Shown: positions 7,163-24,652 of the stretch, piece after piece
Position numbering within the stretch: the first letter of the stretch is position 1
Layout: every line of letters starts with the position of its first letter
IMG/VR virus record: IMGVR_UViG_3300017917_004546
Span: 1 to 48,360 of that record
Length of the DNA: 48,360 bases
From: a virus
Strand: one strand, 5' to 3'
The notes under the pieces: model-generated
The model's input: the letters and a program-made list of their open reading frames with translations, nothing else
Told to the model about the DNA's origin: nothing
The model's database searches: none
Program-made: the position numbers and the translations under genes

Positions 7163-8230
7163 CTATGTATTTATACACCCAAAAAGAGTTTTTGCTGAAT
7201 TCAACCAACTAAATTTTTTAGCTGTTTCTATACCATTAATATTAGTAATAATTTTATTTTTATATACATATCTCATATAATCAATTATTTCATCTTTTTG
7301 TTTATTATCAATTTTTGCCCAATTACCTTGTCCTATAAACGCTTTACCGTCATAAGCTTTTTCTGTTTCATTTATATTTACCAGATAAGAATTATCTTCG
7401 TTACAAAATTCTGTATGAGCAGAATAGTTGGTTGCTATGACTGGTTTATTCATACTCATCATTTCTAGTAGTTCCAAATTCCAGCCCTCGGCTCTGGAAG
7501 GAAACAAGCCACAATCGGCATAATTAATAACTTCCGCTATCTCTGTATGAAATTTTGTTCCATTTAGTAGCTTCACTCTTTTATCGCTAGAATACATATT
7601 TTTCCATTGTTGTAATTCTTGTTCAGATGAGTAGTTATTGGTGTTTTCTGATGCTAATAAACAAAGTTCGACATCGGTTTCGTCGGGAAAGGCTTTCTGA
7701 AATAATTCTAATAATATATCGTGTCCTTTTCTAATTTCCCATTTACCTATATTTATAAAGGTATATTTTTGTTTATTTGGCTTCGTATACTTTGTATTAT
7801 CGAATATATCTCTATTAACACCGAGAGGAACAACTTTAATAGGAGTATTAATGCCATTATTTTGCACAATATTTTTAGCCCAATTGCACGTTACTAATAT
7901 TGTATCGGGTACTTTTAGGTGCGATAGCTCTAAACTATTAAAGGTATCTAATTCAAAAAAAGATAGGGCATAGTAATGTCCTTTACCTGTATGATTTGCT
8001 AAATCGAATTGGTGCCAAATTTTTACAAACGGAGCAAACGGATCAAAATTTATATGACTATTCCTATATAATTTTACTATTAGGTCATGATCATTTTTAT
8101 CGTCTGCGTTTGGTTGTCCTATTGGAAAATATGATATATTTTCGTTGATAGAATACAAATTCTTAAGGATATTCCACGAAGCTATACCATATCCAGTAGA
8201 GTTTATAGCACAAGAAAAGTTTATATTCAT
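7163..8230 (-). CDS. GT4-type glycosyltransferase (GT-B fold)
   Basis: A 355-residue protein with a GT-B arrangement. The N-terminal Rossmann half has a Gly-rich start (NSTGYGIASWN). The C-terminal half begins at FINIGKWEIRKGHDILLELF, the family's G-rich strand and helix. It also holds CGLFPSRAEGWNLELLEMM, which gives the EX7E-type donor-binding motif. Members transfer nucleotide-activated sugars with retention of configuration. The gene overlaps the GMP reductase stop in an ATGA junction. Acceptor and sugar cannot be read from sequence. Confidence 0.85.
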   Translation of the reverse strand: MNINFSCAINSTGYGIASWNILKNLYSINENISYFPIGQPNADDKNDHDLIVKLYRNSHINFDPFAPFVKIWHQFDLANHTGKGHYYALSFFELDTFNSLELSHLKVPDTILVTCNWAKNIVQNNGINTPIKVVPLGVNRDIFDNTKYTKPNKQKYTFINIGKWEIRKGHDILLELFQKAFPDETDVELCLLASENTNNYSSEQELQQWKNMYSSDKRVKLLNGTKFHTEIAEVINYADCGLFPSRAEGWNLELLEMMSMNKPVIATNYSAHTEFCNEDNSYLVNINETEKAYDGKAFIGQGNWAKIDNKQKDEIIDYMRYVYKNKIITNINGIETAKKFSWLNSAKTLFGCINT

Positions 8231-9342
8231 TTGCGATTTATCCTTACAAATTTAGCGCATTTATTAAAATCTTTTAGATATTTAGCTCCAATATATGTTC
8301 CACAACTTCTCAAACCACCAAGTATTTCTTGCACAATATCTTCGACTGGGCCTTTATACGGAACTTTTTCTACTTTTCCTTCACTCGCTCTGTATGTTTT
8401 TTTACCCTCTCCGTGTTTTTGTTGAGCATAATGACTGCTCATGCCATAGAACTTTAAAGATTTTTTTCTTTTTTCTGGTGGATCATAACCAGGATCATTT
8501 GGTTGCCACCATTCATTAACTACTTCTCTGTCATTATTGACTATGGCGCATCTATATTCATACTCCCATTCTCCTTCACAAGGATCTGTTCCAGAAAATA
8601 ATGTTCCGAGCATTAGAAAATCAGCACCTCCACAAATGGCTTTGCATACATCTCCGCTGGTTCTACAACCACCGTCGCTCATGATTAAACCTAGCCTACC
8701 GGTCTCTGTTTTAAGTCCATGTGCAGCATGACCACATTCATTAACACAACTGAATGTGCCGTAGCCAACGCCGGTAACCATTCTAGTTTGACAAAACTGG
8801 CCGGGGCCGATCTGTATTTTACAAATATCTACTCCACCATGAATAATTAGTTCTTCACAAATTTCTGGAGTTGTTACATTGCCAGCACAAATAATACTAT
8901 CATTGAAAGTGTGTCTAACATCTTTACAAAATTTAACAAAACTTTCCATATATCCATTAGGAACATCTATTACTATATTTGGATTTTTGCCTAGTTTTTC
9001 TGATACAATTTTTAATTTTTCTATATCATCATAGGATTTTCCTATACTAATCCAAGCATAGTCTACACCAGCCTCATTAAGAATATTAACTAGCTCGTTA
9101 GCATCATAATATTTATGTAAGGCTGTGATCATTTTAAATTTTGATAATCTTAAAGCCATCTCTTTGGTGGTAAGCGGAACCATATTGGAGCATACTATAG
9201 GGATCCCCGTCCATATTCTTGGGCTGTGATAAAATTTAAAATTCCTTTCAAGCACAACTTCTTTTCTGCTCTCAAGCGTTGTTCGTTGTGGCACAATAAG
9301 AACATCATCAAAATCTAACTTAATATCTTGACTAATTAGCAT
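8227..9342 (-). CDS. guaC: GMP reductase (IMPDH/GMPR family)
   Basis: A 371-residue TIM-barrel enzyme that converts GMP to IMP with NADPH. It has the family start (LDFDDVLIVP), the active-site loop IGPGQFCQTR with catalytic Cys184, and the GMP-binding segments MSDGGCRTSGDVCKA and FYGMSS. The closing ILGGLRSCGTYIGA is typical of GMP reductases. The CBS pair found in most IMP dehydrogenases is absent, and length and loop favour GMP reductase. In an AT-rich phage it could recycle guanine nucleotides toward AMP and dAMP. It overlaps the 71-residue upstream gene by 11 nt. Confidence 0.88.
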   Translation of the reverse strand: MLISQDIKLDFDDVLIVPQRTTLESRKEVVLERNFKFYHSPRIWTGIPIVCSNMVPLTTKEMALRLSKFKMITALHKYYDANELVNILNEAGVDYAWISIGKSYDDIEKLKIVSEKLGKNPNIVIDVPNGYMESFVKFCKDVRHTFNDSIICAGNVTTPEICEELIIHGGVDICKIQIGPGQFCQTRMVTGVGYGTFSCVNECGHAAHGLKTETGRLGLIMSDGGCRTSGDVCKAICGGADFLMLGTLFSGTDPCEGEWEYEYRCAIVNNDREVVNEWWQPNDPGYDPPEKRKKSLKFYGMSSHYAQQKHGEGKKTYRASEGKVEKVPYKGPVEDIVQEILGGLRSCGTYIGAKYLKDFNKCAKFVRINRK

Positions 9343-9547
9343 CTTTTATATACTCCATGAAATCACTAATGTCGTAACAAAACCATTCTTTAAAAGAATC
9401 AAAGCCCTTTTCTGTTACACAAATTTTTGAACCAACTAATAAACCTCTGTGTTTGTAATATTTTAATGTCGCAACTATCGCGTCTTTGTAGTTATCTCTA
9501 TCTATAATATATCTAATATGACCAGATTTAATATAGTATTTAGGCAT
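9332..9547 (-). CDS. Small conserved phage protein (MPKYYIKSG type)
   Basis: A 71-residue protein starting MPKYYIKSGHIRYIID, a pattern I associate with small hypothetical proteins of T4-like and other large phages. It is compact, mixed alpha/beta and has no catalytic motif. The chosen ATG lies 8 nt inside the end of the upstream gene, matching the coupled overlaps of this operon; a start 17 codons further upstream would overlap more deeply. Confidence 0.65.
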   Translation of the reverse strand: MPKYYIKSGHIRYIIDRDNYKDAIVATLKYYKHRGLLVGSKICVTEKGFDSFKEWFCYDISDFMEYIKDAN

Positions 9548-10073
9548 TATTAAAAAATTGCCATCTATTATGGGTTTGTATTTTTTCTGAAGAGTCAATA
9601 TGATTCAAGTAATTTTTAACTTCATCCCATGAAGATAATATCATCTCATGTGGTATCGTTCCAAACAACCAATCTGGAGCATTGTTTTTTCCTTGTTCCA
9701 TATGAATAATTACGGGTTTTTTACTTCTATTGGCTAAAAAAATCTCCTCATAAGTACCACAAGGATGCACATCTATATCAAGATTAACTATTAAAAAATC
9801 ACTAATATCAACAAGTCTTAAGTCAACGCAACGAATATTCTTCATTATTTTTTTAAGCTCATCATACTTTTCTTGTTGTTTTAATTTTGTTTTGTATACA
9901 TGAACAGCATGATCTTCGTTACCGTCTAAACATGGCTTCTTTATTGGATTAAATACCGTAATGCCTAGATTCATAAGAAAAGGAGTTATATTATCTCTCC
10001 ATGTCGAGCCCCTATCCGGAACCCTATCCATAGCTCCTGCCAAATAAACTCTTTGATGATTTAATCTATTCAT
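9540..10073 (-). CDS. Nucleoside 2-deoxyribosyltransferase-like protein
   Basis: A 177-residue protein with the pattern of the nucleoside 2-deoxyribosyltransferase superfamily: an N-terminal VYLAGAMD strand-loop, a Trp-Arg helix, VDISDFLIVNLDID in the middle, then GTYEEIFLANRSKKPVIIHM, carrying the conserved Glu. True members move deoxyribose between bases; many phage homologues are unassigned. ATG 10073 is preferred over an upstream TTG because it lies just after the stop of the 48-residue gene. With GMP reductase it suggests nucleotide salvage or modification. Confidence 0.65.
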   Translation of the reverse strand: MNRLNHQRVYLAGAMDRVPDRGSTWRDNITPFLMNLGITVFNPIKKPCLDGNEDHAVHVYKTKLKQQEKYDELKKIMKNIRCVDLRLVDISDFLIVNLDIDVHPCGTYEEIFLANRSKKPVIIHMEQGKNNAPDWLFGTIPHEMILSSWDEVKNYLNHIDSSEKIQTHNRWQFFNNA

Positions 10074-10074
10074 A

Positions 10075-10221
10075 TCAATCAATAAATAAATATGTAAAAA
10101 TATTTTTAGACTGTTTAATACCTAAAGATGGATTTTGTCTAACTTCTTGTATCTGATTCAGTCCGCTAAGAATACCACCGATAATAGATATGATGATAAA
10201 AAATAATAAAATATAGTTCAT
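10075..10221 (-). CDS. Small single-pass membrane protein (48 aa)
   Basis: A 48-residue protein. Residues 2-20 form a strongly hydrophobic helix (NYILLFFIIISIIGGILSG), followed by a polar tail. Its ATG overlaps the upstream glycosyltransferase stop in an ATGA junction, and its TGA lies 1 nt before the ATG of the next gene. This two-sided coupling supports it being real. Function unknown; it could be an inner-membrane accessory or a small lysis-type protein. Confidence 0.65.
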   Translation of the reverse strand: MNYILLFFIIISIIGGILSGLNQIQEVRQNPSLGIKQSKNIFTYLFID

Positions 10222-10949
10222 GGTATTTTACCTATATATCCAAAATATTTACTTCTCATAGAATTAACCTCGCTGATCATCTCTTTTAATGTTTCCGGAT
10301 TGGTTGAGCGACCAGTTGGATTTTCATAATATAAGCCAACCGGATGGTTGACCATCTTTATTGTAGCACCACCCACGGCACAGCGCAACCAAAAATCTCC
10401 GTCGGCTGCTGTTTTGTAGTTTTCATCAAAGTATCCAAATCTATCGTGAAGACTTTTTTTCCATAGTGGCATACAATGAGGGCTGTTATTTCTTAGAAGG
10501 TTCTCGAAACTATGTGGAAGATAAGGATAAATTTGACTATAATTATTACTTATATATTTTTCGTTAGCTTTGTGTGAAACATATGTAAATCCATATACTA
10601 AATCTAATTCTGGATCTTTATCAAATTGGTATAATAAAATTTCTAGTCCTTCTTTATTTTTTCTATCGTCAATATTCCAGTTTCCTACTATAGAAGCGGA
10701 ACACTTTTTTATAGCTTCGTTCCATCCACAATACAGTCCAGGATCATGATTTAGCTTATAGTATTTAATATTAGAATATTGTTGTTTTAATGGTAATATA
10801 TATTTTTCTTCATTTTCTGGAGAGTCACAATTTAAAAAAATAAACTCTACATCTTTAAAAGATGTTTGTTCTATCAGATTCTCTAAATAAGATTCTATAA
10901 ATTTTTCTCCTTTATAGAAAGAGCAAAATAATGAGCATTTATAATTCAT
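10218..10949 (-). CDS. GT2-type glycosyltransferase (GT-A fold)
   Basis: A 243-residue protein with a typical family 2 start (CSLFCSFYKGEKFIESYLENLIEQ), then DVEFIFLNCDSPENEE and a WNEAIKKCSASIVGNWNIDDR segment that supplies the DD metal-binding pair. YKTAADGDFWLRCA follows, resembling the ED acceptor motif region. Inverting GT2 enzymes use nucleotide sugars and a divalent metal. It overlaps the upstream galactosyltransferase-like gene by 11 nt. Confidence 0.85.
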   Translation of the reverse strand: MNYKCSLFCSFYKGEKFIESYLENLIEQTSFKDVEFIFLNCDSPENEEKYILPLKQQYSNIKYYKLNHDPGLYCGWNEAIKKCSASIVGNWNIDDRKNKEGLEILLYQFDKDPELDLVYGFTYVSHKANEKYISNNYSQIYPYLPHSFENLLRNNSPHCMPLWKKSLHDRFGYFDENYKTAADGDFWLRCAVGGATIKMVNHPVGLYYENPTGRSTNPETLKEMISEVNSMRSKYFGYIGKIP

Positions 10950-11634
10950 TGTTTGAATTTATTGTTAAATTATGGCATTTATAGATTAAATCAGGATTTA
11001 TAGTATGACAAAAATAATAATGATAACACCTATTATTAAATTTTGATACAAGATCTGTTTCAGATACGCAGTCTTCTCTTAGTGCATTTTGCTGTAATTC
11101 TATTTTTTGTTCGATTAAAAATTTTCCTATAGAAACATCATCCATATATACGGCTCCATCATATTCTAATAGATTTTGTTTCTCTACAAGCAATTCTGCC
11201 ACATCTCTGCTCATTAGAATACAAGCACCAGATGAGTATTTAATACCATCATACATACCATTTATTCCATCATAATATTTATCTTTTGGTTTATCTAATA
11301 AAAAATTATATAATAAATTGGTATTGATATAGCTTCCACAATTTGGACGAAAAAGAAAATCAAATTCCATATTATGAAGACAAAATTCAATAGCTTTTAT
11401 TGTTTTATGTAATAAATTTCTTCTTGATTCTATTGTATTTATAATTATATCATAATTATTAGTTTTACAAGAGCCATACGTTGATCGTATCGGATTATCT
11501 GTTCCATAGATAGAATAAATATCTATATTTGTAGAATTTTTTGCCCATGTATTTCTACATGCTTCTACCATTTTTGAATAACATTTGCCTCCCTCGCATG
11601 TGTTAGACGCCAACATCAAACCTAGTATTTTCAT
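10939..11634 (-). CDS. GT31-like glycosyltransferase
   Basis: A 231-residue protein that resembles beta-1,3-galactosyltransferase-type (GT31) sequences. The ACRNTWAK motif matches the family's RxTW. FDFLFRPNCGSYIN takes the place of the DxD strand, and YMDDVSIGKFL matches the conserved EDVxxG motif. It has no membrane anchor, unlike eukaryotic Golgi enzymes. The acceptor is unknown. It follows the epimerase gene by 4 nt in the same operon. Confidence 0.65.
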   Translation of the reverse strand: MKILGLMLASNTCEGGKCYSKMVEACRNTWAKNSTNIDIYSIYGTDNPIRSTYGSCKTNNYDIIINTIESRRNLLHKTIKAIEFCLHNMEFDFLFRPNCGSYINTNLLYNFLLDKPKDKYYDGINGMYDGIKYSSGACILMSRDVAELLVEKQNLLEYDGAVYMDDVSIGKFLIEQKIELQQNALREDCVSETDLVSKFNNRCYHYYFCHTINPDLIYKCHNLTINSNNEL

Positions 11635-11638
11635 ATAT

Positions 11639-12643
11639 TTATTTCCAATAATTATATATGTTTTTATTTATTTCGTATTTCATTTTTTTTGTTTCTCGAT
11701 TTGGCTGATCCTTGGCCCATATAAACATATCATGAATTAAATTTTCTAAATTAGTATTATCAGTAAATTTTAATAATGATTTAGCTTTTGTGTGATCGCA
11801 GTACGCATGTTGAACCTCGTGTCTCGGTTCAAGATGAATTATTTCGGTATTAAATTTATGATGTTCTGCTATAGACTTTATTGTTTTTGCTAGTTCATTT
11901 ATAGTAAAAATTTTATCAGCACCAATATTAAATATTTGCTGATCAAAAGAATCTATTAACATACTAAAAGGAATTAAAAAATATTTTATATCGGAAAATG
12001 CTCTGGTCTGTGTACCATCACCATATATAGTTAATGGTTTATTATTTAAAGCTTGACGTATAAATATCCCTACAACATTTCTATATTTATCCCAAATATT
12101 TTGGTATATGCCTATTACATTATGAGGTCTAAGTATTGTATAACGTAAATTGTGTTGGTCATTCGCTACTTTTATATCTAATTCTGTTGCAAACTTTGCA
12201 ATACCGTATGGATCTGTTGGAGACGGGATCATATTTTCATCGAATGGTGGTTTTTGTGCTCCGTAAACCGCCATAGATGATGTAAAAATTAATTTACAAT
12301 CATATTGAATACATTGATTAATAATATTAACACTAGATAAAATATTATTAGTGTAATTAAAATGTCTTATAAAAGGAGAAAGACCTTCCGCCGCATAAGC
12401 AGCAAAATGATAACATGCTATTGGTTTATGTGTTTTAAAAAGTTTATTTAAATATTTTGTTATATTTTTTTTAGATAAATCATATTCGTAGAATACAAAA
12501 TTTTTATTATTAGGCAAAAATTCTTTATATCCTCCACTTAAATCATCAATGCCTACTACGGTATAATTTTCCTGTAAAAAATATCTAGATACATGACTAC
12601 CCAAAAGACCAGCACAGCCTGTGACTATTATTGTTTTATTCAT
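11639..12643 (-). CDS. NAD-dependent nucleotide-sugar epimerase (GalE-like SDR)
   Basis: A 334-residue extended SDR enzyme. TGCAGLLGSH gives the NAD-binding GxxGxxG loop at residues 7-16. Catalytic residues appear as SSMAVYG and the YGIAK (YxxxK) pair. RPHNVIG and GDGTQTRAFSDI are the conserved substrate-side segments of UDP-glucose 4-epimerases. ATG 12643 starts directly on the Rossmann strand and overlaps the aminotransferase gene by 8 nt; an earlier start would add nine unlike residues. It probably supplies an epimerised UDP- or dTDP-sugar to neighbouring transferases. Confidence 0.85.
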   Translation of the reverse strand: MNKTIIVTGCAGLLGSHVSRYFLQENYTVVGIDDLSGGYKEFLPNNKNFVFYEYDLSKKNITKYLNKLFKTHKPIACYHFAAYAAEGLSPFIRHFNYTNNILSSVNIINQCIQYDCKLIFTSSMAVYGAQKPPFDENMIPSPTDPYGIAKFATELDIKVANDQHNLRYTILRPHNVIGIYQNIWDKYRNVVGIFIRQALNNKPLTIYGDGTQTRAFSDIKYFLIPFSMLIDSFDQQIFNIGADKIFTINELAKTIKSIAEHHKFNTEIIHLEPRHEVQHAYCDHTKAKSLLKFTDNTNLENLIHDMFIWAKDQPNRETKKMKYEINKNIYNYWK

Positions 12644-13445
12644 ATGTATTATTTTTGATTTGTAAAGCAATATTTTCTGCTATAGGACAATATCCTTTGA
12701 TACCCATTTTTTTGTATATTGGTTGATCATAAACAACCGATGGATAATGTCCTTGTTTTGGTCCTCTTAAACCTAATTCTGCTTTTATACCAACCATATG
12801 CAGTTTCATTTGTTCTAAAGCCATAAGACATAGTGGTTCTGCTAGTCTAAAATTAAAGCCTAAATATTCATGATTATATTTTCCAACTTGTCCTTGGTCG
12901 CATATTGATCTGATTTTTTTATGGTCGAGTTTAGATTCGTGAGGAATAGCTATCATTCCTCCTTCGAAGGTTGATATATTTTTTGTTTTGTAAAAACTAA
13001 ATGTACCAGCGTCTCCTATCATGCCAGCAAATTCTCCTTTTGCTGTCTGAGAACCAAAAGCTTGAGAAGTATCTTCTATTACTACTAAGTTATATTTTTG
13101 AGCAATTTTTTTTATTTTTTCCATATTACATATTCTACCATATAAATGGACAGGTAATATAGCTTTTGTATTGGGCGTTATTGCTTCTTCTATAAGATCT
13201 GTGTTTATTAGCAAAGAATCTTTGTCTATATCAACAAATACAGGCTTGGCTTTGCTTATTAGGATAGCGTTTGATGTTGCGATAAATGTAAATGGAGTTG
13301 TTATAATCTCATCTACTGGCTTCAAATCCATAGACCATAGAGTGGCTATTAATGCGCTAGTACCATTATTAACAGATATACAGTCTGTTAGATTGAATGT
13401 GTCTTTAACATAAGACTCAAAAATTTCTCTAATAATTTGTGGCAT
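12636..13445 (-). CDS. Shortened DegT/DnrJ/EryC1 sugar aminotransferase (WlbC-like)
   Basis: A 269-residue PLP-dependent aminotransferase that makes amino sugars from keto-sugars. It keeps NNGTSALIATL (PLP phosphate site), IEDTSQAFGS with Asp125 and SFYKTKNISTFEGG with Lys155, the Schiff-base lysine. Usual length is about 360-400 residues. This one begins near the FEE helix, so 20 or more N-terminal residues are missing. It also jumps from LEQMKLHMVGIKA to a GHYPSVVYDQP-like end, losing most of the C-terminal domain. It may be trimmed but active, or decaying. Neighbouring dehydrogenase and acetyltransferase suggest a Wlb-type pathway. Confidence 0.8.
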   Translation of the reverse strand: MPQIIREIFESYVKDTFNLTDCISVNNGTSALIATLWSMDLKPVDEIITTPFTFIATSNAILISKAKPVFVDIDKDSLLINTDLIEEAITPNTKAILPVHLYGRICNMEKIKKIAQKYNLVVIEDTSQAFGSQTAKGEFAGMIGDAGTFSFYKTKNISTFEGGMIAIPHESKLDHKKIRSICDQGQVGKYNHEYLGFNFRLAEPLCLMALEQMKLHMVGIKAELGLRGPKQGHYPSVVYDQPIYKKMGIKGYCPIAENIALQIKNNTYE

Positions 13446-13447
13446 GA

Positions 13448-14140
13448 TTAAAATTTAACAGCAACAGTGTCCCATGTATTATTAATAATAGTATAGTTAT
13501 TTTTTTTAAGCGTATTTTCCATATTAATTAGACAAGTATTTTCTAGGGTATGGGTTTCCATGCATATAATTTTTGGTTGAATTTTATTCCAGTTAATTTG
13601 ATTAAATATTATATAGTCGTATCCCTCTGTGTCCGAAACATAAATATCTACGGTATTAATTTTGTTATTGGTTAAAAAAAAGTTAAGGCTTTGTGTCTCT
13701 ATTTGGAGATTTTTAATTCTTGTTTGTATAGTTTTATAAAGATGGGTATCGGATAAATTTTGACTTAATTTATAGCCTCCGTAACCAGAACCTAAAAAGT
13801 TTTTACTTTTATCCAAAGTTCCAAGACCCTTGCACCAAGTCGGCAAGTCGTCGTATGGATAGACATAACTTATATCTTCGAATCCTTCTTTATCTGATAT
13901 TGCTAAATTATAACAATCAACCCAGTCATAGCCTGTATAATTTTGTTGTAATTCTCTAAACAAATCTGGTATCGGCTCTAAAATATGACTACGAATTTTA
14001 TGTTTAATAATACTATTTCTACATACATCGTCTTGAACACCGTCGTTACCTCCTATTTGGAGAAGTATCGGTGAAAAATTTTCAATTTTGTTATTTTTAT
14101 CAATGTATTGATCTATAATTTTTGTTAAATCATATGTCAT
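13448..14140 (-). CDS. FkbM-family methyltransferase
   Basis: A 230-residue SAM-dependent methyltransferase of the FkbM type. The N-terminal PILLQIGGNDGVQDD replaces the usual DVGANxG SAM loop. HILEPIPDLFRELQQNY is the acidic motif after strand 2. VDIYVSDTEGYDYIIF matches the family's KIDxEGxE signature. Members methylate hydroxyls of sugars or polyketides. Flanked by sugar-biosynthesis genes, its likely product is an O-methylated glycan. Confidence 0.82.
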   Translation of the reverse strand: MTYDLTKIIDQYIDKNNKIENFSPILLQIGGNDGVQDDVCRNSIIKHKIRSHILEPIPDLFRELQQNYTGYDWVDCYNLAISDKEGFEDISYVYPYDDLPTWCKGLGTLDKSKNFLGSGYGGYKLSQNLSDTHLYKTIQTRIKNLQIETQSLNFFLTNNKINTVDIYVSDTEGYDYIIFNQINWNKIQPKIICMETHTLENTCLINMENTLKKNNYTIINNTWDTVAVKF

Positions 14141-14143
14141 TAT

Positions 14144-14614
14144 TTAGTACACTTTAGCTGGAGAGCCGTAAGCTTTTGAATAGGGTTTGATATTTTTTGT
14201 TACAATAGAGCCTGCTCCGATTATCGCGTGATGGCCTATTATAACACCAGGCATTATTATACTACCGGCACCAATACTTGCAAAGTCTTCTATGATAACA
14301 CCTTCGCATATCCAGTCTTGTTCTGTTAATTTGGTCCCATCATCTTTTGTTGCTTTGGGATACTTATCGTTAATAATTAAACATCTAGGGCCTATAAAAA
14401 CACAATTTCCTATTTTTGCCGGATGATATATAAGGCATCCGCTTTGTATTTTACAATTATTTCCTATAATAACATCTTTATCTATATAGCAATGAGATCC
14501 TATTGTGCAATTATTTCCTATTATTGCTGAGTCTCTTATATGACTAAAATGCCATATATCTGTATTTGCGCCGATGTTGTTAATATTTTCAATAATAGAA
14601 TTAGTACTAATCAT
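14144..14614 (-). CDS. Hexapeptide-repeat sugar N-acetyltransferase (WlbB/WbpD-like)
   Basis: A 156-residue left-handed beta-helix protein. Imperfect hexapeptide repeats ([IV]GxxxxI type) run from residue 30 to 145, interrupted by a loop holding NDKYPKATKDDGT. The arrangement matches WlbB/WbpD, which acetylates the 3-amino group of UDP-2-acetamido-3-amino-glucuronate with acetyl-CoA. It overlaps the dehydrogenase gene by 8 nt, and an aminotransferase lies two genes downstream, the partners expected for that pathway. Confidence 0.85.
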   Translation of the reverse strand: MISTNSIIENINNIGANTDIWHFSHIRDSAIIGNNCTIGSHCYIDKDVIIGNNCKIQSGCLIYHPAKIGNCVFIGPRCLIINDKYPKATKDDGTKLTEQDWICEGVIIEDFASIGAGSIIMPGVIIGHHAIIGAGSIVTKNIKPYSKAYGSPAKVY

Positions 14615-16899: not shown

Positions 16900-17453
16900 T
16901 TTACTGGATTATATACAGTAACAAAAAATTTGCCCCATATATCGTTAATTAGTTCGCTTATAAAGTTCCAATTCCCGCCAGCTAATCCACTACCGAATTT
17001 AGGACAATGAATTTCTATTTTTTCATTTTTATTTACGAAACCGGTATTCATATGAATATATTGAGAAACCTTATACATACTTTGTCCGAGTGCGAAGTAG
17101 TTTAGTGGTCTATTATTGTTGAAGTTCTTAACACCATTTTGGGCAATCATATTGACAAAAATTAATTTATGTCTATATTGAGGTTCCTCATAAACTTTTA
17201 TAATTTGAGAATAACCTAGATTAGCAGACAAAAAGTTTCTACCAAGAAGATGGTAGTCGGCCTTGACTACTGGATACTTTTGACCAACTTGGTATGCGAA
17301 TCCAGCATCAAATAGATCGATATTATTGCACACATGAGGAACAAAAACTGTTGCTCCATTTTCTTTTGAGCGAACTCTTTGTTCGATTATATCGAATATG
17401 TTTTTGTTTGAAAGAACATACGGCTCTTTTTTTAGAACTTTTTGATTAGACAT
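16896..17453 (-). CDS. Macro-domain (ADP-ribose-binding) protein
   Basis: A 185-residue macro domain. VFVPHVCNNIDLFDAGFAYQV matches the early ADP-ribose-binding loop (normally N-x-x-x-x-x-G-G-V), and CPKFGSGLAGGNW matches the second diphosphate loop near residue 150. Macro proteins hydrolyse ADP-ribose derivatives or remove ADP-ribose from targets. A phage could use one to recycle ADP-ribose 1''-phosphate or to reverse host ADP-ribosylation defence. It sits at the promoter-proximal end of the minus-strand operon. Confidence 0.8.
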   Translation of the reverse strand: MSNQKVLKKEPYVLSNKNIFDIIEQRVRSKENGATVFVPHVCNNIDLFDAGFAYQVGQKYPVVKADYHLLGRNFLSANLGYSQIIKVYEEPQYRHKLIFVNMIAQNGVKNFNNNRPLNYFALGQSMYKVSQYIHMNTGFVNKNEKIEIHCPKFGSGLAGGNWNFISELINDIWGKFFVTVYNPVK

Positions 17454-17682
17454 TTTCGTTATCCTTTTTTCTTTCTTTTATCGCTAATATATTACTATCT
17501 TTATCAAAAGTAAAAAGATCAATAGGATCTATCGTTTCGTCTGGATTCAACCATCTTCCATATCCAGTTTTGAGATTGATACAAAGTTTTTTACCGTCTT
17601 TTTTAAAGTCGCTAGTCGTTATAAAGTATTCATTACCTATAACAAAACATTCTCCTACTGATATTTCCTCTAAATATTTCAT
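17446..17682 (-). CDS. Small hypothetical protein
   Basis: A 78-residue protein reading as a small beta-barrel-like fold (EISVGECFVIGNEYFITTSDF, then a Gly-Tyr-Gly-Arg-Trp turn) with a charged tail. ATG 17682 is preferred over a TTG two codons earlier, since it follows the upstream stop within a few bases. It overlaps the macro gene by 8 nt, so the pair is likely co-translated. No family recognised. Confidence 0.6.
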   Translation of the reverse strand: MKYLEEISVGECFVIGNEYFITTSDFKKDGKKLCINLKTGYGRWLNPDETIDPIDLFTFDKDSNILAIKERKKDNENV

Positions 17683-17684
17683 AA

Positions 17685-17888
17685 TCAATGATTATAATAT
17701 CTATCCCAGTCTTCCCACTCTTCTTCTTGATAACTTTCTTTTATTTTTTTTAATTCTTTTTTTGATATATTTTTTCTTTTGTTTAAATCATCTTCCTCAA
17801 AATAATTACTACCATTTTGGTGTTTTTTCTTAAATTTTTCTCGTCTTTTTTCTTTTTCGTTTGAAAAATCGTTATCGAAGTTATTCAT
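17685..17888 (-). CDS. Small highly charged protein, first gene of minus operon
   Basis: A 67-residue, almost entirely charged protein. A Lys/Arg/Glu-rich first half (SNEKEKRREKFKKKHQN) is followed by an acidic, aromatic tail (EEEWEDWDRYYNH). An upstream in-frame start would run through the promoter, so ATG 17888 is chosen. As the first gene behind a sigma70-like promoter it may be an early, host-interacting protein; this is inference. Confidence 0.55.
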   Translation of the reverse strand: MNNFDNDFSNEKEKRREKFKKKHQNGSNYFEEDDLNKRKNISKKELKKIKESYQEEEWEDWDRYYNH

Positions 17889-17920
17889 AGTATTGTTTGT
17901 TTGATCACCTGAATAGATGT

Positions 17921-17948
17921 ATAATACACCTAATCTCTGGTTTGTCAA
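17921..17948 (-). promoter_or_regulatory. Divergent promoter, minus-strand side
   Basis: TTGACA (17943-17948) and TATTAT (17921-17926) are separated by 16 nt on the minus strand, about 33 nt before the first gene of the operon. The spacer ends in the recurrent AGGTGTATTA motif. It is divergent to a similar promoter at 17973-18000. Confidence 0.55.
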
Positions 17949-17972: not shown

Positions 17973-18000
17973 TTGACAAAGACGCATAGAGTAATATTAT
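17973..18000 (+). promoter_or_regulatory. Divergent promoter, plus-strand side
   Basis: TTGACA (17973-17978), a 16-nt spacer and TATTAT (17995-18000) face rightward, opening the plus-strand glycosyltransferase operon. The same two hexamers with the same spacing occur on the opposite strand 24 nt away. The TTG of the -35 box could also be read as a start codon, but the reading before residue 24 looks unlike protein. Confidence 0.5.
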
Positions 18001-18041
18001 TGGTGCAGCTGGGTGATATTATATTTCTTAGGTCGATAATA

Positions 18042-19700
18042 GTGATAAATTCTACTATAGTAACCGGTATATGGGATCTTAGTAGAGATTCTCTATCAGA
18101 AGGATGGGGAAGAAATTATCAGCATTATATTGATAATTTTTCTAAATTATTATCCTCTTTACCAGATGATACTCCATTAATTGTTTTTGGAGAAGATAAA
18201 CTAGAAACATTAGTATATCAATATAGAAATAGAGATAATACAAAATTCTACTTGCATAATAAAGAGGATTTTAAAGGTAATTTTTTTCCGTTTTTCGATA
18301 GAGTTCAGCAAATAAGAATAAAAGAAGAATGGTTAAATCAAGTAGGATGGCTTAGGGATAGTACTCAAGCAAAGCTGGATTTCTATAATCCAATGGTTAT
18401 GAGCAAAATGTTTCTTTTGCATAATGCCAAGGTATTTAATCCATTTAGCACAGAATATATGTTTTGGTTGGACGGAGGAATAACCAACACAGTTCATCCT
18501 GGATATTTTAGTCATGATAAAGTATTGAATAAACTAGAAAATATTGTGAAAAAATTTCTATTTGTATGTTTTCCTTATGAAACAACAACTGAAATTCATG
18601 GATTTAATATAAATGATATGAATAAAATTTGTGACGCCAATGTTAATAGGGTTGCGAGGGGCGGATTTTTTGGAGGTCATATAGACTATATATCTGAAGC
18701 AAATAATTTATATTATTCATTACTCAACGATACTTTATCTCAAAATCTTATGGGCACAGAAGAGAGTGTCTTTACGATAATGACATATAAAGATCCTGAT
18801 ATATATCATTATGAAACAATAGAGTCAAATGGATTAATAAATATATTTTTTGAAAAACTTAAAAATAGTCAAACATATAGTGAAATACATAATAAACAAA
18901 ATTTAAGAAAAAAACATGAAAATAATAATATATTGCTTTATATAAATGCTTTTAATTCTCCAGAACAATTACAAATGGTTTTGGATAGTTTCGAAAAATA
19001 TGATAGAAATTTTTTGGATAAAACCCAAAAAATATTACTAAATAATTCAACAAAAGATGTTTTATATTCTTCATACGACGATATCTGTAATAAATATAAT
19101 TTTAAAGATCATTTTAAATATGGAAATAAAGGAGTTTGTGGATCACGACAATTTGCAGCCGAACATTTTGCTGATTCTGGGTCTAGATATATGATATTTT
19201 TTGAAGACGATATGCTTTTAGATTTTAATGGATCATGTAATTTTGGTTTTAATAAAAATATTCATAATTTATTTAATCGTATTTTAAAAGTTATGAAAAA
19301 TGAAGAATATGATTTTCTTAAATTTAGTTTTAGTGAATTTTATGGTCACAATGGAGAACAGTGGAGTTGGCATAATGTTTCTACTGAGAATAGATTGAAA
19401 TATTTTGGTCGTATTCAAAAAAAACCAAATACAAAATTTTCTTGCATAAAGACCATAGATGGTCTTCCGTATGCAGAAGGAGAGGTTTACTACAGCAATT
19501 GGCCACATATTATAGATCAAGAAGGCAATCAAAAATGTTTTTTGGATACAAAATGGGCCCGTCCTTTTGAACAAACATGGATGAGTCATATATATACATT
19601 AACATTAGAGAATAAAATAAAACCAGCAATATTATTAGCTAGTCCGATTACTCATAACAGGGTTCATTTTTATGAAGCAAGTGAAAGAAAAGAAAGTTAA
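18042..19700 (+). CDS. HtrL/YibB-type protein fused to a GT-A transferase domain
   Basis: A 552-residue two-domain protein. Residues 1-270 match the HtrL/YibB family (opening TIVTGIWDLSRDSL, then MSKMFLLHNAKVFNPF and YMFWLDGGI), a presumed sugar-transferase family found in surface-polysaccharide loci. Residues 295-552 form a second, GT-A-like domain with ILLYINAFNSPEQL and a metal motif YMIFFEDDMLLD. GTG 18042 is chosen because the HtrL match begins there and the promoter lies upstream. The next gene starts within its last 29 nt. The fusion suggests two sequential sugar transfers. Confidence 0.75.
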   Translation: MINSTIVTGIWDLSRDSLSEGWGRNYQHYIDNFSKLLSSLPDDTPLIVFGEDKLETLVYQYRNRDNTKFYLHNKEDFKGNFFPFFDRVQQIRIKEEWLNQVGWLRDSTQAKLDFYNPMVMSKMFLLHNAKVFNPFSTEYMFWLDGGITNTVHPGYFSHDKVLNKLENIVKKFLFVCFPYETTTEIHGFNINDMNKICDANVNRVARGGFFGGHIDYISEANNLYYSLLNDTLSQNLMGTEESVFTIMTYKDPDIYHYETIESNGLINIFFEKLKNSQTYSEIHNKQNLRKKHENNNILLYINAFNSPEQLQMVLDSFEKYDRNFLDKTQKILLNNSTKDVLYSSYDDICNKYNFKDHFKYGNKGVCGSRQFAAEHFADSGSRYMIFFEDDMLLDFNGSCNFGFNKNIHNLFNRILKVMKNEEYDFLKFSFSEFYGHNGEQWSWHNVSTENRLKYFGRIQKKPNTKFSCIKTIDGLPYAEGEVYYSNWPHIIDQEGNQKCFLDTKWARPFEQTWMSHIYTLTLENKIKPAILLASPITHNRVHFYEASERKES

Positions 19701-20961
19701 AAATAATAAAGAAACTATATTTATACAAATAGCTTCGTATAGGGATCCTCAGCTTCTTCCGACACTAAAAGATATGTTGGATAAGGCAAAATATCCAGAT
19801 AATCTTAGAATCGGAATATGCTGGCAACACGCAGAACAAGATGAATGGGATAGATTAGATGATTATATCAATGATTCAAGATTTCGTATCATAGATGTTC
19901 CGTATACTGAAAGTCAAGGAGTATGTTGGGCAAGAAATCAAGTACAATCATTATACCAAAAAGAAAAATATACATTACAATTAGATAGTCATCATAGATT
20001 CACTAATAATTGGGATAGTGAATTGATAGATATGTTAAAAAATCTTCAAAAAGAAGGTCATAAAAAACCTTTAATTACATCATATATTCCCAGTTTTGAT
20101 CCAGATAATGATCCTGGTGCTAGAATTGAACAGCCATGGAAAATGAATTTTGATAGATTTATTCCAGAGGGTGCCGTATTCTTCCTTCCTGCTAATTTTG
20201 ATAGTTGGGACGATAACACTAAGCCTTTACCAGGGAGATTCTATAGTGCTCATTTTGCTTTTACAGTAGGCGAATTTTGTGAAGAAGTACCTCATGACCC
20301 AAATTATTATTTTCATGGTGAAGAAATAAGCATAGCGGTTAGAGCATTCACTCACGGTTATGATATTTTTCATCCGCACAAAGTTCTAATATGGCATGAA
20401 TATACAAGAAAAGGACGAACCAAACAATGGGATGATGATAAAATTTGGATCGAAAGAAATAACAAATGTCATCTCAGAAATAGAAAATTATTTGAAATGG
20501 ATGGCGAAAAAAGAGATATAGATTTTGGCCCATATGGTTTTGGTAAAATTAGAACCTTAAAAGATTACGAACTTTATTCTGGACTATGTTTTAGCAAAAG
20601 AGGCATAACCAAGAGAGTCCAAGAACATAAACCACCACCAGATCCAGATACTACCAATTTAGATTATAATACATTTCAATCTCATTTGATGAGCATATTT
20701 AAACATTGTATAGATATTCAGTATGGACAGGTTCCAGAAAATGATTATGATTTTTGGGCAGTTGCTTTCAAAGATAAAGAAGGTAATGATATTTATAGAA
20801 AAGATGCTGATAAAGAGGAAATACTAAGAATGAAAAACGATCCAGATGGGTACTGTAAGGTTTGGAGAGAATTTCAAACAGATCAAAATCCTCATAGCTG
20901 GATAGTTTGGCCCCACAGCACTAGTAAGGGGTGGGCAGAGCCCATCACTGGTAACTTATAA
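19672..20961 (+). CDS. GlcNAc-transferase-family protein (PF11397, Skp1-GlcNAcT-like)
   Basis: A 429-residue protein with the hallmark start of the glycosyltransferase GlcNAc family: IFIQIASYRDPQLLPTLKD, RIGICWQHAEQDEWD and SQGVCWARN, then the LQLDSHHRF metal motif near residue 103. Eukaryotic members add GlcNAc to hydroxyproline of Skp1; bacterial and viral homologues mostly act on unknown acceptors. The C-terminal 130 residues extend beyond the usual catalytic part and look like an additional domain. The start overlaps the preceding gene by 29 nt. Confidence 0.85.
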   Translation: MKQVKEKKVKNNKETIFIQIASYRDPQLLPTLKDMLDKAKYPDNLRIGICWQHAEQDEWDRLDDYINDSRFRIIDVPYTESQGVCWARNQVQSLYQKEKYTLQLDSHHRFTNNWDSELIDMLKNLQKEGHKKPLITSYIPSFDPDNDPGARIEQPWKMNFDRFIPEGAVFFLPANFDSWDDNTKPLPGRFYSAHFAFTVGEFCEEVPHDPNYYFHGEEISIAVRAFTHGYDIFHPHKVLIWHEYTRKGRTKQWDDDKIWIERNNKCHLRNRKLFEMDGEKRDIDFGPYGFGKIRTLKDYELYSGLCFSKRGITKRVQEHKPPPDPDTTNLDYNTFQSHLMSIFKHCIDIQYGQVPENDYDFWAVAFKDKEGNDIYRKDADKEEILRMKNDPDGYCKVWREFQTDQNPHSWIVWPHSTSKGWAEPITGNL

Positions 20962-21509
20962 TGCCAGGAAATTGGGGATATTTATCTAATGATATTAAAT
21001 ACTATGTAGAAAAAAATATACCTAAAGAATCTTCTGTTTTAGACATAGGGTGTGGACACGGACACTATGCTAAACTACTCAAAGATCATTTTATAAATAA
21101 AATGCATGGAGTAGAAATTTGGCAAAAATATATAGATAAATATTCATTAGAGAGTTTATATTCTAAAATATATAATGTTAATATATTAGATTTTAGGTTT
21201 GACTATTATAATTTTATTATTATTGGTGATGTACTAGAACATCTCTCTAGAGAAGACGGTACAAAACTAATATCTTATCTATGTGATAGGTGCGATGAAA
21301 TTCTTGTTGTTGTTCCATATAATCTTCCTCAAGACATAGTTAATGAAAATAAATATGAAATCCATCTTCAGCCTGACCTAAATGACGAAATTATGAAAAA
21401 TTTTTATCCTCAACTTGAACTCATAAAAATAGAAGACAAAGAACTTAAAATAAAAGTAGAAGTTGGAGAAAATACCTATTACTACTGTGCTTTTAGGAAG
21501 AAAAAATGA
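20961..21509 (+). CDS. Class I SAM-dependent methyltransferase
   Basis: A 182-residue compact Rossmann methyltransferase. SVLDIGCGHGHYAKLL is motif I, MHGVEIWQKYID the acidic strand-2 motif, and FIIIGDVLEHL motif IV with post-motif His. It begins in a TAATG junction with the GlcNAc-transferase stop and ends in an ATGA junction with the next gene. Likely target: a sugar in the glycan made by its neighbours. Confidence 0.85.
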   Translation: MPGNWGYLSNDIKYYVEKNIPKESSVLDIGCGHGHYAKLLKDHFINKMHGVEIWQKYIDKYSLESLYSKIYNVNILDFRFDYYNFIIIGDVLEHLSREDGTKLISYLCDRCDEILVVVPYNLPQDIVNENKYEIHLQPDLNDEIMKNFYPQLELIKIEDKELKIKVEVGENTYYYCAFRKKK

Positions 21510-22303
21510 AACCAATTTATTTTACAACCTTGAGTCTAGGCGAAAACTATACAAAAGATTATACTGTTAAATTAATTGATCAAGTATTAAATAAAACAAA
21601 CCACTTTTTTGCGCTGACTACTGATTGTCCTAGTATTGTTAGAGATCTTTATCCTAATAATGATAGAATATTAATAGATACAATATCTAAAAAAGATTTT
21701 AAAATTAGACTACCAATAGGTAGTCCAGAAGGACCAGCAACTGACTTTAACTTCAACATGAGATATAGATGTATAGAACAACTACTTCCTATAGAAGAAG
21801 ATTTTTATACTATCTGGACCGATTGCGACAATTCTTTGGAGTGGTGGGATGAATTAACTGTTCAGTCTTTTTTTAGTACTATATATGATTCTGGTTATGA
21901 TTTTCTAGCCCCAAGAAACTCGTATAAATTTATTGATTTTCTTATTGATTTCAAATCAAAAAATGATCCTAGACATGGTATTTTTTGGCATAAAATATTT
22001 AACTATGATCTAGATAGTAATCCTAGACCGGAATGGGATAATGCTACTCTTCCGGCAGAATATATGTTGGTTTTCTTAAATTCTAAAAAACTTACATCTT
22101 TCTATAATCAGTTTAAATGGTTTCACGATTATTTAGCAAACAAACCTTATACGCAAGGAACATGGGCTGAAGGATTTGAAATAGGAGTCTCTGCTCTTGT
22201 TGCAGAATATGTTCCTTACGAAATAGGATGGAATCATCACATATTGTCCAGAGCTATTAAGGCTAATGGACATAAAGTAGGACACCCAACAGAAAGTCAG
22301 TAA
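21506..22303 (+). CDS. Putative glycosyltransferase with TDCD motif
   Basis: A 265-residue protein. It opens with a PIYFTTLSLGENYTKDYTVKL strand-helix similar to GT-A enzymes. The FYTIWTDCDNSLEWWDE stretch near residue 105 gives a DxD pair, and AEYMLVFLNSKK follows in the acceptor half. Overlaps of 4 nt and 1 nt link it to its neighbours. No exact family is recognised, but I read it as a transferase with fair confidence. Confidence 0.6.
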   Translation: MKPIYFTTLSLGENYTKDYTVKLIDQVLNKTNHFFALTTDCPSIVRDLYPNNDRILIDTISKKDFKIRLPIGSPEGPATDFNFNMRYRCIEQLLPIEEDFYTIWTDCDNSLEWWDELTVQSFFSTIYDSGYDFLAPRNSYKFIDFLIDFKSKNDPRHGIFWHKIFNYDLDSNPRPEWDNATLPAEYMLVFLNSKKLTSFYNQFKWFHDYLANKPYTQGTWAEGFEIGVSALVAEYVPYEIGWNHHILSRAIKANGHKVGHPTESQ

Positions 22304-23181
22304 TGTCAAATACAAAACTTGTGTTCTATGCACAACCATCTTTTAGTGGATGGATGCCAACAACTATTTTTCAGTCTTTGTATGATCATTACAAATTTAT
22401 ATATGGTGATTACATACAACTTGATAACAATAGCATATCTTATAATAATAACTATGGCCATAATACAGGTCCACATCATCTTATAATAAAAAATATAGAA
22501 ACAGAAAAATATAAAGTAGTAACATATTGGGACAGAGCCTATGAGCTTCTTGACGACAAATGCGATTGGGATAATAGCAAATGTATAGGAGTATATTCTG
22601 CGGTAAATGCAAAAAGTCATAAAAATATTATTCCTTCATCTTATTCAACTTATAATACTGTTATTGAAACAGCAATAAATAATTGTAATAAATATTTTTT
22701 TGATAAAAAAAATAAAACATTATTATTTAGGGGATACTTACACGGATCAAGATATTTGATAGGTAATTTAAATGATTATAAAAATATCATTACTGTAGAA
22801 GATAAGAGAATAACATATGAAGAATATATAAATGAATTAAATAGCTACTTGATAGGCTTGAGTCTAAATGGTTCTGCTGAAATCTGCAATAGAGACATGG
22901 AAATACTAGGTGTTGGTTCTGTATTATTAAGACCAACATTAAAAACAACTGATTTTCACAATCCTCTTGTTGCTGGTGTACACTATGTTCCATTCGACAC
23001 AGACAATGATCCAAAGCAACAACTAGAAATTATACTAGAAACACATAGTAGGCTTTTAAAAGATGTTGACTATATGATGTATGTTGCCCAAAATGGACTT
23101 AACTGGTATAACAGTAATGGATCAAAAAACGGCAATGTTTTAGTTTTATCGAATATTCTTAATCTAGAAGAACTATTATGA
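22303..23181 (+). CDS. CAP10/GT90-like glycosyltransferase, tentative
   Basis: A 292-residue protein. FRGYLHGSRYLIG near residue 145 and the downstream LIGLSLNGSAEICNRDMEIL, then GVGSVLLRP and GVHYVPFD, resemble the C-terminal half of CAP10 (GT90) O-glucosyl/xylosyl transferases and related exostosin-like proteins. The N-terminal 120 residues are not recognisable. It is coupled to the preceding gene by TAATG and to the next by ATGA. Confidence 0.5.
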   Translation: MSNTKLVFYAQPSFSGWMPTTIFQSLYDHYKFIYGDYIQLDNNSISYNNNYGHNTGPHHLIIKNIETEKYKVVTYWDRAYELLDDKCDWDNSKCIGVYSAVNAKSHKNIIPSSYSTYNTVIETAINNCNKYFFDKKNKTLLFRGYLHGSRYLIGNLNDYKNIITVEDKRITYEEYINELNSYLIGLSLNGSAEICNRDMEILGVGSVLLRPTLKTTDFHNPLVAGVHYVPFDTDNDPKQQLEIILETHSRLLKDVDYMMYVAQNGLNWYNSNGSKNGNVLVLSNILNLEELL

Positions 23182-23870
23182 CAACTATAAATAAAATACA
23201 AAATGCTCTATTAAACTTTAAAATAGATAAAAAATATTGGACATATGATAGTTTAACTGGCGAAGATTATGATATTAGAAGATCTAAACCAGCACCCTTT
23301 ATAAAAAAAACAATAGAAATAGCAAAAATACTCAATCTTAAAACAGTTGTAGAGATAGGCTCTACCAGATTATCTTCTAGTCAAAAATGTATTAATTATT
23401 TTGACTCGCCCAATATAGATCCTTTTATCTCTCCTCCATGTTGCTGCGATGGTCATGCTACTTTTTTTTGGGCTAGGGCTGGTTTTGATGTTTATACAGT
23501 AGATATAGATGAAAACTGTATCAATGGAGTAAACTGGTGTTATTCTAATATCGGTATAGAAAAACCAAGTAATTTACACATAAACATTCCTTGTGATGGA
23601 ATAGATTTTTTAGCTAATTTCGATAAACAAATAGATATTTTATATCTAGATGGTTGGGATAAGGGGACTCCAAACTTTGCTGAAAATCATCTTGAAGCTT
23701 TTAAAGCGGCACAAAATAAACTATCAAATATTCATTTGGTTTTAGTTGATGATACCGACTTTAATACTCCAGATGGAGGCAAAGACAAATTATTATCTCC
23801 TTATCTAATAGATAATGGATATTCTTTACTTTTTAATGGTAGGCAAACACTATTTTTACACAGGATTTAA
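23178..23870 (+). CDS. SAM-dependent methyltransferase-like protein
   Basis: A 230-residue protein with a Rossmann arrangement. KTVVEIGSTRLSSSQ is motif I, GFDVYTVDIDENCING motif II, and IDILYLDGWDKGTPNFAENH a strand-4 motif resembling methyltransferase type 24 proteins. HLVLVDDTDF follows as strand 5. An unusual Cys cluster (PPCCCDGHATFF) lies between motifs I and II. It probably modifies a glycan or nucleotide sugar. Confidence 0.7.
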   Translation: MTTINKIQNALLNFKIDKKYWTYDSLTGEDYDIRRSKPAPFIKKTIEIAKILNLKTVVEIGSTRLSSSQKCINYFDSPNIDPFISPPCCCDGHATFFWARAGFDVYTVDIDENCINGVNWCYSNIGIEKPSNLHINIPCDGIDFLANFDKQIDILYLDGWDKGTPNFAENHLEAFKAAQNKLSNIHLVLVDDTDFNTPDGGKDKLLSPYLIDNGYSLLFNGRQTLFLHRI

Positions 23871-23872
23871 AA

Positions 23873-24652
23873 ATGTCACAGGTAGTAGTATCTTTAACAA
23901 CAGTACCTAATAGGCTTATGGAACCCAAAGACTATATGGGCACTAGACTAGGACTAAAAACGCTATTAGAACAATCATATAAAAATTATGAAATTCATTT
24001 TAATATCCCGCATTCTTATAAAAGAACTGGTGAACAATTACATATTCCCGATTGGCTATATGATTTCGAACAATCAAATCCTCATTTAAAGATTTTTAGG
24101 ACAAAAGATCTTGGTTCTATTACTAAAATAATACCAACTCTTGAAAGAATAAATGATCCAGATACTATAATTATAGTAGCAGACGATGATCTGTACTATA
24201 TGGACGGCATGATAGAAGCTCATCTAGAAGCTAGAGAAAGATACCCAAACGCTGCTATAGGCTTCGCTGGAATGAGCGCCCTCGACGGCTCATGCCACTT
24301 CTGCACAACACTAGCCAAAGATACAAGGGTTAAGATACTAGAAGGATACAAAACAGTATCATATAAAAGAAGTTTTTTTGACATAGAAGAATTTAAAACA
24401 AATTTTGTATCTAAATCATGGAATGACGACCATACGCTATCTGCTTATATGGGATATAAAAATATACCTAAAATAGTTATGTCTTATGAAAATGATACTG
24501 ATTTTTCTCCTAGAGTTGAATCATTTCCAGTTATTGGTCACACACCAATAGAAAGAGGTGGCTGTTATGAGTTTAGGAATAATTCTGATTTACAAAATGA
24601 ATCTGAAATTAATATAAATAATTTTTATAAACTAGGCTATCTTGAGCGTTAA
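23873..24652 (+). CDS. GT-A-type glycosyltransferase
   Basis: A 259-residue protein. VVVSLTTVPNRL is the first strand, LKTLLEQSYKNYEIHFNIP the second, and TIIIVADDDLYY near residue 103 the metal-binding DDD. KSWNDDHTLSAYM is a plausible acceptor/catalytic helix. It closes the plus-strand operon and overlaps the end of the convergent subtilisin gene by 4 nt, with no terminator between. Confidence 0.8.
   Translation: MSQVVVSLTTVPNRLMEPKDYMGTRLGLKTLLEQSYKNYEIHFNIPHSYKRTGEQLHIPDWLYDFEQSNPHLKIFRTKDLGSITKIIPTLERINDPDTIIIVADDDLYYMDGMIEAHLEARERYPNAAIGFAGMSALDGSCHFCTTLAKDTRVKILEGYKTVSYKRSFFDIEEFKTNFVSKSWNDDHTLSAYMGYKNIPKIVMSYENDTDFSPRVESFPVIGHTPIERGGCYEFRNNSDLQNESEININNFYKLGYLER

Follow-up and report, generated by a model that had tools for sequence, protein, structure and literature searches.

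Glycosyltransferase (GT) family GT60 includes the Trypanosoma cruzi enzyme that adds alpha-linked N-acetylglucosamine (GlcNAc) to threonine residues of mucins (PMC9472816, PMC3769586), and also the Skp1 hydroxyproline GlcNAc-transferase (PMC6939170). Among phages, modification has been reported at the C-termini of the capsid and tail tube proteins of mycobacteriophages (as cited in PMC12619734), and a proteomic analysis of phage XacN1 detected two or more glycoproteins in its virions (PMC5852040). In the literature library searched, no paper linked GT60, or its Pfam family PF11397, with phages, and a search for mucin-like phage proteins returned unrelated papers only. Here we analyze a 48,360-nucleotide stretch of viral DNA (IMG/VR record IMGVR_UViG_3300017917_004546, positions 1 to 48,360; hereafter the window), which derives from a large freshwater bacteriophage and contains, at 7163-24652, an island of glycan-related genes with a GT60 gene. 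We consider it probable that the island encodes a mucin-type O-glycosylation system for the fibre or spike proteins of the phage, in which GT60 initiates the glycan and gene cassettes extend it.

The gene around which the island appears to be organized is the following:

19672-20961, plus strand: GT60-family candidate polypeptide N-acetylhexosamine (HexNAc) transferase (PF11397, 240.4 bits against a cut-off of 21.0, E = 5e-71)

The product also matches phrog_24687 of the PHROG collection (E 4e-177), and a scan recovered the gene in 80 viral loci at 51-88% identity. The motifs DSHxRF and YFHGEE are invariant in 46 GT60 relatives; we take them to be the catalytic motifs of the GT-A core, namely the DxH-type metal and nucleotide-sugar site and the C-terminal acidic motif. 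Searches of the PDB by sequence, both single and profile, gave no match, so that structure comparison was needed. The AlphaFold2 (AF2) model has a predicted local distance difference test score (pLDDT) of 92, and each of the 27 top-ranking fold matches in the PDB is a polypeptide N-acetylgalactosamine (GalNAc) transferase. The best are GalNAc-T1, T4 and T2, with GalNAc-T1 bound to a Muc5AC glycopeptide at the top (E 8e-10). The whole-length template modelling (TM) score is modest, at about 0.4-0.5, because the C-terminal part differs, and the similarity concerns the core fold only. Profile and model place the protein in CAZy family GT60, with a predicted GT-A core fold related to polypeptide HexNAc-transferases, and we propose it as the conserved anchor of the island and the initiating enzyme, a candidate for HexNAc transfer to polypeptide.

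Candidate acceptors accompany GT60 in viral records. Open reading frames (ORFs) with Thr/Ser-Pro repeats are present in all 10 long GT60 records, which were joined from fetched pieces (2-7 in each, 44 in 1.92 Mb), and are absent from four random large phages totalling 0.79 Mb, which make up the whole large-phage control, and from 0.67 Mb of random viral loci. In the reverse test, 8 of 50 contigs selected solely by a PTPTPTPTP coding pattern carry GT60, against 0 of 50 random contigs (p=0.003). At several loci the GT60 gene starts 37-300 bp past a Thr/Pro-rich gene; in locus L077, a 1754-residue ORF with 37% Thr and 19% Pro ends 89 bp before it. A rotation test of the proximity between GT60 and repeat genes gave a combined p=6.5e-4, and proximity is strong in records G004 and G007. 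Some repeat proteins bear FGE-sulfatase-fold, DUF285 or BspA-type leucine-rich repeat (LRR) domains, which we read as receptor-binding modules.

A longer record, G006 (IMGVR 3300035670_011224, 152 kb), represents the same phage species as the window, as judged from synteny and from DNA identity that is mostly 88-98%, and shows the sequence beyond the window's left end. Of its seven repeat ORFs, six lie at 77-97 kb. A 1049-residue protein of G006 has 58 PPS units together with a block rich in TPT and, at its C-terminal end, BNR-like repeats, and its N-terminus matches an ORF at the edge of the window:

2-520, minus strand: N-terminal piece of a candidate acceptor, in which a Cys-rich head leads into a poly-proline run that the contig end truncates

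A Thr/Ser-Pro tandem-repeat acceptor candidate is present in the same genome, as seen through the same-species record, and the window's own acceptor gene probably lies at its edge, cut by the assembly. Positions 1-48 of the window fall within a CCA/CCG (poly-proline) run, and two GT60 relatives have collagen repeats at the contig end; acceptor genes are therefore places where assemblies break, which leads to an undercount of acceptors. Collagen was rejected as the acceptor, as no more than 2 of 12 GT60 records contain PF01391, each time at a contig end. Locus L040 has one GXY-rich ORF, and the collagen type is a minority acceptor at most.

Within the annotated phage collection, GT60 is found in only three records, XacN1, RAS14 and CM1. 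Sites coding for TPTxTPT number 51 in XacN1 and 22 in RAS14, whereas the seven further large isolates searched, phiKZ, T4 and phage G among them, have none. The GT60 gene of XacN1 is ORF334, and some of the TPTxTPT sites lie in ORF350, beside one structural and one head-completion gene, and others in ORF369, ORF370 and ORF372, which adjoin tail sheath genes. The XacN1 authors suggest ORF334, together with ORF328, as makers of the glycoproteins (PMC5852040). The virion glycoproteins of XacN1 are the strongest outside support for the glycosylation reading.

Bacteria offer a parallel. Many bacterial genome records contain GT60 relatives, although some of these contigs are probably phage. At 11 Burkholderiales GT60 loci, a type VI VgrG with a Ser/Thr-Pro (S/T-P) repeat tail is encoded about 4 kb away:

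L574, L564, L579, L595, L590, L576, L578, L580, L585, L587 and L570: Burkholderiales GT60-VgrG loci, with VgrG at about 15.1-18 kb

The tail repeats vary by species (TPTPTP, TPDETPDE, PPSEEP, TEPPP, STPEP). The tail is present in 8 of 8 GT60-linked VgrG proteins and in 0 of 16 complete paralogous VgrG proteins of the same eight genomes (p 1.4e-6, with relatives that are not independent). At least 10 other bacterial-genome loci, including one of the cultured Jiulongibacter sediminis, have a T/P-repeat ORF directly beside GT60. These sequence patterns suggest that Burkholderiales secretion spikes are glycosylated. The broader proposition, which we hold to be evenly balanced, is a general prokaryotic mucin-type device: one GT60 polypeptide HexNAc-transferase would be dedicated to the Thr/Ser-Pro repeats of machines that carry needles or fibres. 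These would include tailed phages and type VI spikes, and perhaps further injection systems as well as exported proteins with repeats; in phages the enzyme would be coupled to exchangeable glycan-switching cassettes.

The island comprises 23 ORFs in two divergent strings (minus strand, 7163-17948; plus strand, 17973-24652). The larger ORFs of 7163-32818 were scanned, with the Pfam curated cut-offs as the line between supported and sub-threshold assignments. Besides GT60, the island and its surroundings contain:

7163-8230, minus strand: GT4-type (GT-B) transferase (PF13692, E 6e-15), in the island flank and conserved in related long genomes
8227-9342: GMP reductase, not a glycan gene
9540-10082: nucleoside deoxyribosyltransferase-like protein, not a glycan gene
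10218-10949, minus strand: GT2 transferase (PF00535, 47.5 bits, cut-off 23.3)
10939-11634: GT31-like, plausible transferase (PF01762, E 0.0014, below cut-off)
11639-12670, minus strand: GalE-like NAD-dependent epimerase (PF01370, E 3e-40; TIGR01179, E 7e-40, below cut-off)
12636-13445, minus strand: DegT/DnrJ sugar aminotransferase, shortened to 269 residues (PF01041, E 4.5e-70, covering 29-235 of 360)
13448-14140: FkbM methyltransferase, above the Pfam cut-off
14144-14614, minus strand: hexapeptide N-acyltransferase (PF00132, E 2.6e-25; NeuD/PglB/VioB family, E 1e-25, below cut-off)
14607-15455, minus strand: GFO/IDH/MocA dehydrogenase (PF01408, 24.0 bits, cut-off 24)
15440-16255: ORF with no profile or Pfam match
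16252-16899, minus strand: GT-A transferase resembling PBCV-1 A064R and GT8 (profile match to 2p6w, E 5e-4; AF2 pLDDT 90)
16896-17453, minus strand: macro/phosphatase-like protein (phrog_335), not a glycan gene
17973-19700, plus strand: HtrL_YibB-type protein (PF09612, E 8e-11) with a C-terminal region of about 300 residues
20961-21509: methyltransferase, above the Pfam cut-off
21506-22303: plausible transferase with a conserved DxD motif and no profile or Pfam identity
22303-23181: GT-B-like, plausible transferase (PF13524, E 0.007, below cut-off)
23178-23870: methyltransferase-like protein, with an unnamed PHROG match only
23873-24652: GT2-like, plausible transferase (PF00535, E 0.019, below cut-off)
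28059-28910, minus strand: 2-oxoglutarate (2OG)-Fe(II) oxygenase (PF13640, 31.0 bits, cut-off 27), a possible prolyl hydroxylase and optional accessory
29256-30293: Nucleotid_trans-like transferase (PF03407, 21.8 bits, cut-off 22)
30290-30913: ORF with no informative profile or Pfam match

An earlier note on this DNA gave a correct overall picture but counted somewhat too generously; the identity of GT60, the candidate acceptors and the cassette exchange were not in it. The dense glycan-gene block in two divergent strings that it described is borne out by the ORF map and Pfam over 7.2-24.7 kb. Its figure of about ten transferases is an upper estimate: four glycosyltransferase-type genes of the island score above the Pfam cut-off (GT4, GT2, HtrL/YibB and PF11397/GT60), one more is identified by profile and structure (16252-16899), four are plausible below cut-off, and some ORFs are not glycan genes. 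The epimerase it named is the NAD-epimerase at 11639-12670, above cut-off, and its sugar-biosynthesis cassette likewise holds, with the DegT, acyltransferase and epimerase genes above cut-off and the GFO dehydrogenase at it. Two of the three methyltransferases have Pfam support, and the third (23178-23870) keeps its unnamed PHROG match. As for the two transferases placed at 29.3-30.9 kb, one is marginal, at 0.2 bit under the cut-off, and the other lacks an informative match.

Several of these proteins recur with GT60. An HtrL homologue is present in 68 of the 80 GT60 loci, and the HtrL_YibB protein is probably the conserved partner of GT60 and a second (core) transferase. Homologues of the 16252-16899 product are present in 27 GT60 loci, and Foldseek matches of its model include the Skp1 galactosyltransferase 6mw5, 2p6w and glycogenin. 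The nearest named family of the 14607-15455 dehydrogenase is UDP-GlcNAc 3-dehydrogenase (NF040723, E 6e-12, under its cut-off). The phrog_335 protein adjoins the divergent start of the GT60 string and has conserved counterparts in 31 GT60 loci, most of them 60-99% identical.

The earlier note had left conservation of the cluster in related phages to be checked; flanks and intervening genes are kept, whereas the cluster is not one block, and three stretches are exchanged. Between the window and G006, DNA identity is 82-98% on both sides of three gaps, which correspond to the following slots:

10930-16254: slot A, with the GT31-like, epimerase, DegT, FkbM methyltransferase, acyltransferase and GFO dehydrogenase genes and one unknown
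20936-24793: slot B, with the methyltransferase, DxD transferase, GT-B-like transferase, methyltransferase-like and GT2-like genes
29240-30894: slot C, with the Nucleotid_trans-like gene (29256-30293) and an unknown (30290-30913)

Slot A is absent from G006, where its flanks have 91% and 87% DNA identity and enclose other ORFs, including a Mannosyl_trans3-like gene. Slot B is absent from both G006 and L006, with conserved flanks, and is occupied in G006 by GT10, GT7C, GT47/RXYLT1-like and GT2 genes. Locus L003 keeps slot A at 93% and has a different slot B. Slot C is absent from G006 and present in L006 at 99-100% protein identity. A search for mobility repeats at the slot edges found none, only chance-like AT-rich matches. 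The initiating pair is kept and the extending enzymes are replaced; glycan switching is therefore predicted.

From family, fold and genome context we infer the acceptor, donor, linkage and function as follows. GT60 would place a first HexNAc, probably GlcNAc, on Thr/Ser within the Thr/Ser-Pro repeats of the phage's own large fibre-like or spike-like virion proteins. HtrL and the transferases of slots A, B and C would then lengthen and branch this first sugar, while the dehydrogenase, aminotransferase, acyltransferase and epimerase would supply a UDP-2,3-diamino or diacetamido sugar and the methyltransferases would cap the glycan. The UDP-2,3-diamino or diacetamido hexose is a guess at the slot A product, because all named-family scores are below cut-off, and the shortened DegT aminotransferase may be altered in function. 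At the sequence level, the extending genes are swapped as blocks between conserved edges, and close relatives are predicted to show different glycans on a constant initiation point. The benefits, speculatively, could be stiff, protease-resistant, hydrated bottle-brush fibres whose variable outer face escapes binding or defence factors.

Several observations weigh against this proposal. The enzyme activity and the glycan of this phage are predictions from sequence and model, and the window's acceptor is incomplete at the contig end, with poly-proline only and no Thr repeat. Within the window's own lineage, the repeat genes of G006 and G011 lie 17 kb and 75 kb from GT60, and proximity there is not significant. 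In 18 of 46 dereplicated loci the fetched flank has no repeat ORF, many flanks ending at contig ends, and most PTPTPTPTP-pattern contigs, many of them short fragments, lack GT60. Some bacterial GT60 loci (Luteibacter, cyanobacteria) have no convincing repeat neighbour. Relatives are not independent, which makes the p-values optimistic, and the XacN1 glycoproteins are not named in the accessible part of PMC5852040.

The enzymes might instead remodel the host surface polysaccharide (O-antigen or capsule) during infection and so exclude other phages, as has been proposed for glycosyltransferase clusters of jumbo cyanophages with their sporadic, polymorphic gene content (PMC7824862); block exchange is seen in the window's species too. 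However, among the larger ORFs of 7163-32818, small ORFs being outside the scan, Pfam found none of the genes expected of a Wzx/Wzy-type capsule or O-antigen locus (flippase, polymerase and the initiating polyprenyl-phosphate sugar transferase), nor any membrane protein that would modify an acceptor. The most conserved enzyme, moreover, is a relative of polypeptide transferases and is associated, in phages as in bacteria, with T/P-repeat proteins. Surface remodelling is thus an unlikely account of the island, and a possible one for some cassette enzymes. The Skp1 GnT1 enzyme, a GT60 member that acts on hydroxyproline (PMC6939170), suggests another route, in which the 28059-28910 oxygenase would hydroxylate (S)PP repeats that GT60 then glycosylates, giving virion proteins like plant extensins. 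The window's species does combine a 2OG oxygenase with PPS-repeat proteins, but just 2 of the 12 long GT60 records examined for the oxygenase family (PF13640) have it, which rules the pathway out as a general explanation, and acceptor-like proteins elsewhere are mainly Thr-rich. We judge this route less likely still, and it may be an accessory in the window's species.

Phage glycosyltransferases often modify DNA (PMC12619734), and the GMP reductase and nucleoside deoxyribosyltransferase-like genes are linked to the cluster. These nucleotide genes, however, lie in the conserved flank and not in the exchanged cassettes, no DNA glucosyltransferase family or base-modifying enzyme was found among the scanned window proteins, which represent part of the genome, and block replacement of extending enzymes better fits a surface glycan. 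That the cluster makes a DNA base hypermodification is very improbable. The earlier note's suggestion of a complex, phage-specified glycan beyond DNA glucosylation, on virions or on the infected cell, is supported, and the evidence favours the virion, because the anchor enzyme belongs to a polypeptide-glycosylating family and has a mucin-type initiating fold, and in view of the Thr/Pro repeat proteins and the XacN1 virion glycoproteins.

Other phage genes in the window encode a ClpP-type head protease, a sigma factor, rIIA, a RuvB-like ATPase, volactin and tRNA-Leu. The actin-like volactin (26665-27672, minus strand; PF25216, E 1e-61) is kept beside the island in relatives. Many relatives retain, adjoining their GT60 cassette, a row encoding a subtilase, a trypsin-like protease and an HNH protein (24649-26663, minus strand, in the window), which possibly serves virion or fibre processing. 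Unusual phage cargo includes a PSCyt1-DUF1549-DUF1553 protein of planctomycete/verrucomicrobial type (45695-48076, minus strand) and two DUF1501 proteins (44360-45685 and 31514-32818, both minus strand). The nearest match of the 44360-45685 protein among five genomes compared is in Verrucomicrobiota (53-55%), a hint to the host. A 10.9-kb contig from Lake Lanier (L550) with a 99% identical GT60 is binned in an alphaproteobacterial metagenome-assembled genome, and is probably a mis-binned phage contig.

If the mucin-type proposal is true, large phages use an initiating enzyme of their own to build glycoproteins that resemble mucins or extensins, an ability known chiefly in eukaryotes, and alter the glycan by gene-block swaps. 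Phage surface glycans would become predictable from sequence, and the same family would be linked to type VI spikes. The proposal is directly testable on cultured XacN1 and RAS14.

The closest eukaryotic counterpart is mucin O-glycosylation by TcOGNT of T. cruzi, which shares the GT60 family, Thr/Pro-rich repeat acceptors and a single initiator followed by variable extension (PMC9472816, PMC3769586). The system predicted here differs in being phage-encoded and without a Golgi, in its virion rather than cell-surface acceptors and in its extending enzymes, and the phage GT60 has a beta-rich C-terminal region (about 340-428). The animal and apicomplexan polypeptide GalNAc-transferases (GT27) provide the closest solved fold, a DxH-type motif and a mucin-type role; identity in structure alignments is, however, only about 10-15%, the donor sugar is probably another, and the phage GT60 shows no sign of a ricin-type lectin domain.

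Capsid glycosylation in chlorovirus PBCV-1 is likewise virus-encoded protein glycosylation, and the 16252-16899 protein resembles A064R in profile and fold. PBCV-1, by contrast, infects algae and modifies its major capsid protein, whereas the likely acceptors here are repeat-containing fibre-like or spike-like proteins of a tailed phage. Mycobacteriophages and XacN1 combine phage transferases with virion glycoproteins, and XacN1 carries GT60 itself (ORF334), although a T/P-repeat acceptor and a mucin-type logic are not described in the accessible part of PMC5852040. The glycosyltransferase clusters of jumbo phages (cyanophage capsule clusters, moraphage core transferases) also comprise several sporadic transferases in large aquatic phages. 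For these, earlier work put forward roles in modifying the capsule/O-antigen, DNA or the virion, without naming this kind of acceptor; the system proposed here, if true, would provide a definite protein substrate for the many jumbo-phage glycosyltransferases that lack an explanation.

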